DNA of 64,000 nt. It comes from Candidatus Peribacteria bacterium (lineage in GTDB: Bacteria; Patescibacteriota; Gracilibacteria; UBA1369; LOWO2-01-FULL-3). Of the stretch, positions 32,241 through 50,441 are shown in pieces. Position numbers and translations under genes: made by a program. Every line of letters starts with the position of its first letter. The stretch's first letter is position 1. Location of the stretch: positions 17,730 to 81,729 of the forward strand of contig CALREX010000002.1 of assembly GCA_943356465.1 (NCBI GenBank), written 5' to 3'. A model generated the notes under the pieces. The model was not told the origin of the DNA. It ran no database searches and was given only the letters and a program-made list of their open reading frames with translations.

Positions 32241-32252
32241 CAATTATAATTG
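32241..32252. promoter_or_regulatory. symmetric bidirectional -10 element between the Trm9-like gene and elp3
   Basis: The 12-bp perfect palindrome CAATTATAATTG carries TATAAT on both strands. It sits 6 bp upstream of the methyltransferase ATG (minus) and 8 bp upstream of the elp3 ATG (plus), so both mRNAs could be leaderless. No strong -35 box is visible for either direction. Confidence 0.6.
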
Positions 32253-32258
32253 TTCTGT

Positions 32259-33884
32259 ATGGATTTTGCGAATTTAAATCTGGATGACAATCAGGAGCTT
32301 GCAAGAAATATTATAATCGAGGCCTCAAAAAAAACTTTCAAAACAAGGTCTGATTTTGAGCATTTTAGAAATGGAATTGTGAAAACATTTAAGGGGAAAA
32401 TTTTTCACAATCTTTATTTTATTAGGGCTTATGAGGATTTACTTAAGGAGAAAAAAATAAAGAATAATCCATCTCTTCTTTCCTTTCTTAGAAAAAGGGG
32501 AGTGCGAACTTTGAGTGGTGTAACCCCTGTAACTGTTCTTACAAAGCCATATCCGTGCCCAGGGAAGTGTGTTTATTGCCCTACAGATGTTAGAATGCCG
32601 AAAAGTTATCTGCCTTCGCAACCTGCCGCTCAAAGGGCATTAAGGCAAAATTTTGATCCATATACTCAGGTTTTTGTTAGATTGAAGGCTCTTACTATAA
32701 CCGGACATGAAGTTTCAAAAGTTGAGTTACGTGTGATAGGTGGTACTTTCAGTTCTTATCCGAGAGCTTATCAAACATGGTTTATAAAAAGATGTCTTAC
32801 TGCAATGAACGACTTTTCTTTGCTTATCTTATTAAAAAAGCCATTGAAGGAAAAACTTTCTTTTGCCAATACTATAAAGAAAAATGAAACTTCAGATGTT
32901 AGATGTATAGGTATAAATATAGAGACCAGACCTGATTTTATCGATAAAACTGAGGTTAGACGTCTACGAATGCTTTGTGTGACTAAAATTGAGCTTGGAG
33001 TACAGACTACTGATGAAAGAATACAGGAATTAACGAAGAGGGGGCATGATTTGAAATCTGTGAAAGATGCTACAGGTCTGTTAAAAGATAGCGGATTTAA
33101 AATCGGATATCATATGATGCCGAATTTGCCAGGATCTACGCCTGATTTTGATAAAAAAATGGTTGGAGAACTTTTTACAGACTCTGGTTTTCAACCTGAT
33201 TATTTGAAAATTTACCCTTGTGTGGTTGTGCCCAAAACTCAACTTTTCTACACTTTTAAACGTGGTGAATTTCAACCTTATGATGATAAAACTCTGGAAG
33301 AAATTCTTTTGGCCGAAATGTTGTCTGTGCCTGAGTGGTGTCGAGTTGATCGTGTTGCCAGAGATATTCCTGCGCCTGATATAACCGCCGGCTCAAAAGT
33401 GTCTAATATAAGGCAAATTCTTGAAGAAAAATATATGAAAAGTACTGGAAAAACTTTTCGTGAAATACGTGCACGTGAGATCAAAAATGAATCTTTTAAG
33501 GAAAAAGATGTGAAATTGATTGTTCGAGAATATGATGCCAATGGTGGAAAAGAGTTTTTTATCTCTTTTGAAGATATCAAATATGATAAGCTCATAGCCC
33601 TTATTAGGTTGAGATTCCCATTTAAAACATTTATTCCTGAATTGAAAAATGCTGCTTTGGTAAGGGAAATACATGTTTATGGAAAACAAGTTGCAGTAGG
33701 GAAGAGGAGTGGCAAAGAAAAACAACATGGTGGATTCGGTTCCAAGCTTATGAAATATGCTGAGGATTTTGCAAAAAAGAATGGATATAAGAAACTTGCT
33801 GTCATAGCTGGAATAGGAACGAGAGAATATTATAAAAAATTGGGATACAGACTTAAAGGGACTTATATGTTGAAGGGAATATAA
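32259..33884 (+). CDS. Elp3-like tRNA uridine(34) acetyltransferase / radical SAM protein
   Basis: A full-length bacterial Elp3. The radical-SAM part has PYPCPGKCVYCPTDVRMPKSYLPS (4Fe-4S Cys cluster) near 105-115, VIGGTFSSYP, IETRPDF, ELGVQTTDERIQELTKRGH and YHMMPNLPGSTPDFD. The C-terminal third is a GNAT acetyl-CoA domain: HGGFGSKLMKYAEDFAKKNGYKKLAVIAGIGTREYYKKLGY. It makes 5-carboxymethyluridine at wobble U34. I choose the ATG at 32259; a TTG three codons upstream falls within the -10 element. It is followed by a perfect hairpin. Confidence 0.95.
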   Translation: MDFANLNLDDNQELARNIIIEASKKTFKTRSDFEHFRNGIVKTFKGKIFHNLYFIRAYEDLLKEKKIKNNPSLLSFLRKRGVRTLSGVTPVTVLTKPYPCPGKCVYCPTDVRMPKSYLPSQPAAQRALRQNFDPYTQVFVRLKALTITGHEVSKVELRVIGGTFSSYPRAYQTWFIKRCLTAMNDFSLLILLKKPLKEKLSFANTIKKNETSDVRCIGINIETRPDFIDKTEVRRLRMLCVTKIELGVQTTDERIQELTKRGHDLKSVKDATGLLKDSGFKIGYHMMPNLPGSTPDFDKKMVGELFTDSGFQPDYLKIYPCVVVPKTQLFYTFKRGEFQPYDDKTLEEILLAEMLSVPEWCRVDRVARDIPAPDITAGSKVSNIRQILEEKYMKSTGKTFREIRAREIKNESFKEKDVKLIVREYDANGGKEFFISFEDIKYDKLIALIRLRFPFKTFIPELKNAALVREIHVYGKQVAVGKRSGKEKQHGGFGSKLMKYAEDFAKKNGYKKLAVIAGIGTREYYKKLGYRLKGTYMLKGI

Positions 33885-48300: not shown

Positions 48301-48317
48301 ATTTTTTAATTTAAAGA

Positions 48318-50441
48318 TTATTTAAACATTTTCTTGGAACGTCTTTCTTTATTATATGTTATAGCAAATCTATGTGCTTCGTCACGGATTCTTTGTAATA
48401 ATTTTAATGCCGCATTTGTTTTATCAAGTATAATTGATGTTTTATTCCCTTCGGTGAAAATCTCTTCGAGTTGTTTTGCAAGTGAGATATGTGGAATTTT
48501 CAACTCCAATTCTTCCATTACTTTTGTTGCAATACCAAGTTGTCCTTTACCACCGTCTATTATAATCAGATCCGGAATTTGAATGAATGATTCGTCGGGT
48601 TTGTGTTTATTTTTGTCATATAGCAGTGCTTTTTTGACAGTTTTTTGTATTTCTTTTGGAATTTGTTTTATTTCTTCAAAACCTAATATAAGGTAATAAT
48701 CCTTTAATTCTTCTTTGCACGATATGTATATTCTTTTTGATTTTGTTTTTGCTATGATATTTTTCAATAATTTTCTTCCTATTTTATTTCCTCTTTCTTT
48801 TGGCATTACGAATAATGCATTTATTTCGGCAACGCTATTCTCGTGTTCACGAAGTGCTGCGAATGCTGCAAGTGATTTTCCTTTTTTTTCGAGAATGTAA
48901 AAATTCTTTATATCTATCCCCTGTTGTAAATTATTTTTTTTAATTTGTTTGTTTATTTCTTTCTCGTATTTTTTTGTAGCTTTTTTAAATGTGTAATCTT
49001 TTGCTTTGTAATCATCTGCTATTTTTGAAAATCTTCTTGTTAAAACTTCTTCCATTGATTTGTAATCGTCAGGATATCCCTCAACTGTGCGTAATTTGAA
49101 TTTTCTATATAGATCGTTTTTAGGAATTCCGTTTTGAAAAGCCACCATTGATCCGACTGTTTCTGTGCCTGACAAATGAGAAATATCGTAACACTCTATT
49201 CGTTTCAATGGTGAGGCAATGTTTAGTAATGTTTGTAGTTCCTGAATTCCATCTTTACTGAATTCACTTTCTGTTTTCCAGCTTGGTTTTTGTCTGTCTG
49301 CGTAAATTTTTGCATTGTTCATGCTCATTTCAAGAAGTTTGTTTTTGTTTCCAATTTTAGGAATTGCAAGCCAAACTTTCGATTTCTTTTCTTCGCTTAA
49401 TGTTTTTTCTATTTCATTAATATTTTCTATTTCGTGTGGGATTAGTATTTCTTTTGGGATATCTGTTGCAATTTTATAGTATTGATTTACGAATGCTGAT
49501 AATACTTCTTTGTTATCGTTTTCTTCCGCGGCTTCTGCTGATAGAGTAAAATTTTCTTGTCCTATTAATTTGCCATCCCTTATTTGGAATAAATTAAAAT
49601 ATGCTTTATTTTGTGTGATGTGATAATTTATTACATCTTTATCTTCTTGATTTGGATCTGATACTTTTTGTTTTTCTAGTATTTCTTCAACTTTTTTGAG
49701 TTTATCTCTAAGTTTTGCGGCTTTTTCAAATTCTCTGTTTGTTGCAAGTCGTTGCATTTTTTCTTTCATGTCTTTTACTATTGAGTCTGCTTTTCCAGCT
49801 AAAAAATTTTCCACATTTTTTATTATTTCTCCGTATTCTTCTTTTGAAACTTTACCTATGCATGGTGCTGCACATGTTTTTATGTAATAGTCCAAACATG
49901 GGTATTTGATGACTTTATTTGTAACTTCAACTTCATTGTCGATTTCGAGTTTTTTAATGAATTTTATGTCCAAGTTGCAATGTCTGAACGGAAAAATTTT
50001 CTTTAACATTTTGAATGTCGTTTCTACCTTGTGTGCCGCTGTTTTTGGTCCGATATATTTTGCTCCGTCTTTTTCTACTTTTCTTACTATTTGAACTCTT
50101 GGAAAAGCTTCATTTGTTATTTTTATGTAAACGTAGTTTTTATCATCTTTAAGTAAAATATTGTATTTTGGTTGAAGTTGTTTTATCAAATTTGATTCAA
50201 AAATAATGGCTTCCAGTTCTGTGTCTACAGATATGAAGTCTATTTTTGTGGCATTTTCCAGAAGTTTTCTTGTGCGTGTTGAATGTTGATAATCTTTCTG
50301 GAAATATTGTCGTAATCTCTTTTTTAAATCTTTTGCTTTTCCTATATATAGCACAGTCCCCTCTTCGTTTATCATTTTATATATTCCTGGAGAAGAAGGT
50401 GCTCTTTGTAGTATTCCTTTTGCTTCTTTTTCGCTTATCAT
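48318..50441 (-). CDS. uvrC: excinuclease UvrC with internal GNAT-like domain, lacking the HhH tail
   Basis: The 707-residue protein has the GIY-YIG nuclease (SSPGIYKMINEEGTVLYIGKAKDLKKR, 16-42), a Cys-rich linker, a UVR motif near 222-257, and the RNase H-like nuclease starting at RIECYDISHLSG (Asp419). UvrC usually passes within about 10 residues from RRYSR-type to LPDLIIIDGGKG; here residues 478-618 are inserted, and within them 510-590 look like a GNAT acetyltransferase (AEINALFVMPKERGNKIGRKLLKNII, YYLILGFEEI). The protein ends at YNKERRSKKMFK where the (HhH)2 domain would start, and no remnant follows. It makes both incisions in nucleotide excision repair. Confidence 0.92.
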   Translation of the reverse strand: MISEKEAKGILQRAPSSPGIYKMINEEGTVLYIGKAKDLKKRLRQYFQKDYQHSTRTRKLLENATKIDFISVDTELEAIIFESNLIKQLQPKYNILLKDDKNYVYIKITNEAFPRVQIVRKVEKDGAKYIGPKTAAHKVETTFKMLKKIFPFRHCNLDIKFIKKLEIDNEVEVTNKVIKYPCLDYYIKTCAAPCIGKVSKEEYGEIIKNVENFLAGKADSIVKDMKEKMQRLATNREFEKAAKLRDKLKKVEEILEKQKVSDPNQEDKDVINYHITQNKAYFNLFQIRDGKLIGQENFTLSAEAAEENDNKEVLSAFVNQYYKIATDIPKEILIPHEIENINEIEKTLSEEKKSKVWLAIPKIGNKNKLLEMSMNNAKIYADRQKPSWKTESEFSKDGIQELQTLLNIASPLKRIECYDISHLSGTETVGSMVAFQNGIPKNDLYRKFKLRTVEGYPDDYKSMEEVLTRRFSKIADDYKAKDYTFKKATKKYEKEINKQIKKNNLQQGIDIKNFYILEKKGKSLAAFAALREHENSVAEINALFVMPKERGNKIGRKLLKNIIAKTKSKRIYISCKEELKDYYLILGFEEIKQIPKEIQKTVKKALLYDKNKHKPDESFIQIPDLIIIDGGKGQLGIATKVMEELELKIPHISLAKQLEEIFTEGNKTSIILDKTNAALKLLQRIRDEAHRFAITYNKERRSKKMFK

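Follow-up and report, generated by a model that had tools for sequence, protein, structure and literature searches.

The uvrC gene in the window (the whole 64,000-nucleotide stretch of DNA analysed here) encodes a repair nuclease in which a predicted, complete acetyltransferase (GNAT) fold is nested inside the 5'-incision domain, an architecture that we regard as solid. With a probability of about 0.5, we read the insert as an acquired acetyl-CoA-binding module that is probably competent in the window's family and structural elsewhere. Few bacterial repair proteins are as conserved as UvrC, but here one of its loops, close in sequence to a catalytic Asp of 5' incision, holds a folded enzyme domain that selection has kept across an order. 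The open-access literature searched yielded no description of a UvrC with a GNAT or other acetyltransferase domain, although absence there is not proof of novelty, and nothing on the UvrC of Peregrinibacteria was found in it.

The UvrC nuclease and its inserted domain

The features of the gene are listed below with their window coordinates.

48318..50441, minus strand: UvrC coding sequence with an internal GNAT domain and without a C-terminal (HhH)2; 707 amino acids in one uninterrupted frame (TIGR00194)
50160..50390, minus strand: GIY-YIG domain, 3' incision, residues 18-94 (PF01541, E = 5e-12)
49683..49784, minus strand: UVR motif, UvrB contact, residues 220-253 (PF02151, E = 1.5e-7)
49293..49643, minus strand: UvrC RNase H-like N domain, residues 267-383 (PF22920, E = 2.5e-31)
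49023..49235, minus strand: 5'-incision RNase H domain, first half, residues 403-473, with catalytic D419 (first stretch of PF08459; 2nrt alignment)
48579..49022, minus strand: inserted segment, predicted complete GNAT fold, residues 474-621, 148 amino acids (Pfam, AF2 model m878d0147db0b, Foldseek)
48777..48794, minus strand: putative acetyl-CoA-binding loop, R-G-N-K-I-G, residues 550-555, RGxKxG form (sequence comparison)
48678..48698, minus strand: YYLILGF, residues 582-588, whose second Tyr occupies the presumed general-acid position of GNATs (sequence comparison)
48321..48578, minus strand: RNase H domain, second half, residues 622-707, with D629 (IDGGKG) and H690 (EAHRFA) (PF08459; 2nrt alignment)
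48301..48317, no strand: intergenic gap of 17 bp to the next same-strand gene (start 48300), without an (HhH)2 remnant (sequence)

The protein scored 506 bits against TIGR00194, the NCBI equivalog model of uvrC (cut-off 285), and the GIY-YIG domain, the UVR motif and the RNase H-like triad that mark a UvrC were all found. The GIY-YIG residues Y21, Y32, G34, R42, and E77 are invariant in an alignment of 23 sequences (A4), and the D-D-H triad (D419, D629, and H690) matches the aligned residues of T. maritima UvrC, with the two halves of the RNase H domain flanking the insert. Elsewhere in the 1.08 Mb genome, we identified UvrB (986 bits) and UvrA (1435 bits). With both nuclease active sites complete and its two partner subunits encoded in the genome, the window UvrC most likely functions in repair.

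The first-pass annotation had noted about 140 extra residues (478-620) within the catalytic domain, which was close: we measured 148 (474-621), bounded by RRFSK (residues 469-473) and IPDLIIIDGGKG (residues 622-633), and the three motifs on which a GNAT-like run had been proposed (INALFVMP, ERGNKIGRKLL, and YYLILGFEEI) all lie within them. The same two boundary motifs are separated by 2 residues in the solved T. maritima UvrC and by a few in that of B. stearothermophilus. The PF08459 (UvrC RNase H) match is broken into two stretches by a GNAT match at residues 488-593. Within the insert, the Pfam GNAT match reached E = 3e-10, and Acetyltransf_10 (488-593, E = 3.4e-9), Acetyltransf_1, and Acetyltransf_7 all exceeded their curated cut-offs; when 101 homologous inserts were scanned singly, as many as 70 gave Pfam GNAT matches too. 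The structure prediction and fold search proposed as a check on that annotation were both run, the prediction on alignments of 21-23 sequences from named Peregrinibacteria and relatives. The AlphaFold2 model of the insert (21 sequences) was confident (pLDDT 86.5, pTM 0.81) and had the strand and helix order of a GNAT, and a Foldseek search of the PDB with it returned acetyltransferases at the top with a probability of 1.00 (2r8v, 3d2p, 3d8p, and ArgA 5yge). The full-length model (pLDDT 79, pTM 0.45) matched both UvrC structures and GNATs, its domain arrangement being unreliable. By profile, model, and fold search (Pfam, AF2, and Foldseek), the insert is thus a predicted GNAT-fold domain and belongs by its fold to the GNAT superfamily.

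Compared with the UvrCs of T. maritima, B. caldotenax, and E. coli (TIGR00194; 1ycz, 1yd6, 2nrt, and 3c65), the window UvrC has the same GIY-YIG, UVR, and RNase H-like parts and the same catalytic residues, whereas the insert and the absence of (HhH)2 set it apart. The insert shares its fold, the place of its loop, and the YYxxxGF Tyr with ElaA (5z6n), S. aureus 3d8p, and the GNAT of N-acetylglutamate synthase (2r8v and 3d2p); however, those GNATs are free-standing or joined end to end with another domain, while the window GNAT is nested inside a nuclease domain. In Elp3 (radical SAM plus GNAT), which acts on tRNA, a GNAT is likewise joined to a domain that acts on nucleic acid, but as a terminal fusion. 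An Elp3-like protein with a radical SAM domain and a C-terminal GNAT is encoded at 32250-33884 (plus strand) of the window, and it and UvrC are the only proteins in the genome with PF00583 matches above cut-off.

Acetyl-CoA loop and selection on the insert

The loop of the window insert, R-G-N-K-I-G, departs from the GNAT consensus Q/R-x-x-G-x-G/A in that Lys replaces the middle Gly. The first-pass annotation was right about this substitution but not in treating it as a departure from the norm, since RGxK(L/I)G is the commonest loop form across distant families of the insert and Lys occupies the same place in the solved GNATs ElaA (RGEKVG) and 3d8p (RNLKIG). A degenerative origin of the Lys was rejected on the same grounds. 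We sorted the loops of the 101 inserts, using one alignment of divergent sequences, into an RGxKxG kind with K, R, E, Q, or H at the fourth place (42), a canonical R/QxxGxG/A kind (13), partial loops (2), and lost loops (44). The RGxKxG kind was found in families f1, f5, f6, f9, f12, f15, f19, f22, f24, and f43, and because it spans so many families, it is probably ancestral to the insert family. In the window's family, the RGxKxG loop and the following Tyr are kept together in 24 of 27 members. A free-standing GNAT of the class, from family f26, shares 36% identity with the insert and carries both features as well (RGKKLG and YYKELGF).

Across the inserts, retention of the loop goes with retention of the Tyr, and loss with loss (Tyr kept/lost, 54/3 with the loop vs 17/26 without it; Fisher p = 1e-9), and the association persisted when the window's family was left out (30/3 vs 16/24, 15-fold odds). 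Locus L088 was excluded from these tests; our own profile had falsely called it a GNAT, and Pfam identifies it as nucleotidyltransferase-like. Paired comparisons on the tree ran in the same direction in 5.6 pairs and in the opposite direction in 0.1, with a median sign-test p of 0.06 from few pairs. At the presumed base position, the Glu is not conserved within the window's genus, the nearest two relatives having Q and I there. The loop state changed about 20 times on the tree, an approximate number from a quick tree. With no loop in 44 of 101 inserts and changes of state this frequent, cofactor binding would not be essential in general; the joint behaviour of loop and Tyr fits a cofactor function that some lineages preserved and others abandoned. 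As the domain persisted while its cofactor loop decayed time and again, these inserts offer a natural gradation from probable enzymes to probable scaffolds.

We then compared the substitution rates of the insert with those of the rest of the protein. In the window's genus, the insert has a dN/dS of 0.17-0.21 and the rest of the protein 0.03-0.07; in three pairs of loop-less lineages (L029/L031, L035/L036, and L036/L037), the insert has a dN/dS of 0.04-0.08. These ratios are rough, as dS is high and near saturation in several pairs, and all those computed lie far below 1. By these estimates, the insert is under purifying selection, including in lineages without the loop; it mostly evolves faster than the nuclease, yet constraint on it persists even in inserts that are unlikely to bind acetyl-CoA.

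Distribution among relatives and the missing (HhH)2 tail

Whole-genome searches found the insert at the same UvrC site in 27 of 27 sequences measured from the window's family, in all other sampled families of the order, and in most other families of the class. The named relatives that carry it are mostly Candidatus Peregrinibacteria, plus Peribacteria and Gracilibacteria. In this survey of the UvrC loop, which covered Patescibacteria and scanned the named genome collection with a narrow insert alignment only, the insert was absent from f18, f148, families reading TGA as an amino acid, and many members of f21; of the sequences examined outside the class, a few carried it and the rest did not. 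The first-pass annotation had pointed to an assembly chimera as the outcome in relatives that would undo its observation. No chimera emerged when relatives were checked: the architecture recurs at the same site in independent assemblies from dozens of genera, and the window frame is single and unbroken, so that a chimera or an annotation artefact, as an explanation of negligible probability, was ruled out.

Several records stood out in this survey. L104 (G115, family f43 of another class, 2.0 Mb genome) has a main-type GNAT insert, which may have arrived by horizontal transfer, and extra residues after its VDGGKG motif. The UvrCs of L140 and L144, titled Nitrospirota/Nitrospirae, appear to be the same as those of the window-family loci L013 and L015, and these records are probably mistitled MAGs. 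In L070 (G071) and L027 (G010), UvrC lies in two frames, split within or near the insert by a frameshift or an assembly error.

The window UvrC ends at KKMFK without the C-terminal (HhH)2 expected of a UvrC, and the 17 bp downstream hold no remnant of it, just as had been reported earlier. The HhH domain of E. coli UvrC supports 5' incision (PMC7835731). According to the portions of PMC9426483 drawn on here, HhH is reduced or lost in Helicobacter UvrCs, in which the catalytic residues are kept as in the window protein, and disruption of the HhH motif in H. pylori affected UV survival little; those portions describe no inserted domain, unlike the situation in the window. Because Helicobacter provides natural precedents for the loss, the assignment of the window protein to UvrC stands despite the missing (HhH)2.

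It had also been suggested that the insert might replace the contacts of the missing (HhH)2 DNA-binding domain, and that both traits might prove to be conserved together. Within the window's family this is so, as all 27 sequences carry the insert and lack (HhH)2; beyond it, the two are not coupled. Among the 88 tree rows with a GNAT-profile match, a count that includes the falsely called L088, 43 keep the HhH tail (for example L029 and L094, which have Pfam HHH_5 matches) and 45 lack it, and two UvrCs without the insert also lack HhH. On the core tree (111 rows, built quickly and with several open forks, so that event numbers are approximate), HhH required 15 changes and the insert 6, and in pairs that differ in HhH, the insert was unchanged in 6.6 of about 8. 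A link between an intact loop and HhH loss was rejected as well, its raw association being weak (30/14 vs 17/25) and paired comparisons giving none. By these comparisons, (HhH)2 loss is a separate, repeated event, and with the small effect of HhH disruption in the passages on H. pylori (PMC9426483) also counting against it, replacement of HhH by the insert is highly unlikely.

Possible roles of the insert and the UvrC loop as an insertion site

The acquired acetyl-CoA-binding module that we favour would have begun as a complete GNAT, acquired in-frame long ago in a short loop of the RNase H domain before the strand with the second catalytic Asp. In the window's family, this GNAT would still bind acetyl-CoA, which we consider slightly more probable than not, and would either acetylate lysines or sense acetyl-CoA near the incision complex, with UvrB, UvrC itself, and bound DNA proteins as candidate targets. 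Many sister lineages would have shed loop and presumed catalytic Tyr jointly while keeping the domain as a structural module beside the nuclease. The nested architecture makes acetyl-CoA tuning of repair incision testable. The main rival holds that the GNAT fold is purely structural in all such UvrCs, that it plays no acetyl-CoA role in the window's family or elsewhere, and that it enlarges the RNase H domain so as to reach DNA, UvrB, or a second UvrC. We consider this quite possible, though short of probable: the domain was retained in the 44 inserts that lost the loop, at the low dN/dS of the loop-less pairs, and the window's genus shows no conservation of the presumed catalytic Glu, but nearly all members of the window's family, like distant families, keep RGxKxG and Tyr, and their joint loss is what would be expected of a cofactor function that was kept and then lost.

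The same loop has taken up other domains in families f21 and f23, within a few residues of the same UvrC boundaries. In f21, the GNAT inserts of L103, L114, L115, L159, and L160 form a clade apart from the main GNAT, the insert of L088 is the nucleotidyltransferase-like domain (PF10706, E = 1.7e-6), that of L162 is a DUF559 nuclease (E = 8e-35), and other members have only 8-32 residues in the loop; in f23, L090 carries a serine alpha/beta hydrolase (PF06821, E = 7e-12). The UvrC loop is an insertion hotspot and a natural permissive site. The DUF559 insert in UvrC (L182:1923-2367, G408) is flanked by 34-nt inverted repeats that are 85% complementary and translated in-frame. In the same genome, a second DUF559 (L189, G408:C5:5284-5616) lies in-frame inside an apparent valyl-tRNA synthetase, identified by eye, beside a repeated SPLAPLIEGGNPA segment. 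Because the DUF559 insert has inverted repeats and a second DUF559 occurs in the same genome, these sequences suggest that the UvrC loop can receive small mobile reading frames in-frame. The GNAT of the main clade may have arrived long ago in the same way, a route proposed for it by analogy.

Such uptake of unrelated domains, the inverted repeats of one of them, and the presence in f21 of members with and without inserts would also be expected if the GNAT were tolerated as a mere passenger: a small gene that settled in a permissive surface loop and plays no part in repair. However, the main-clade GNAT has persisted throughout the order and in several families beyond it, at dN/dS values far below 1, and we regard a mere passenger as improbable. 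A more far-reaching proposal is that Peregrinibacteria couple their nucleotide excision repair to acetyl-CoA, with the GNAT acetylating the incision complex or gating 5' incision, and that the loop serves as a general docking port for enzymatic domains; we put this forward as speculative and rather doubtful. In L105 (G101, family f29 of another class), the same loop holds a 123-residue segment that is rich in Lys and Glu and probably forms a coiled coil.
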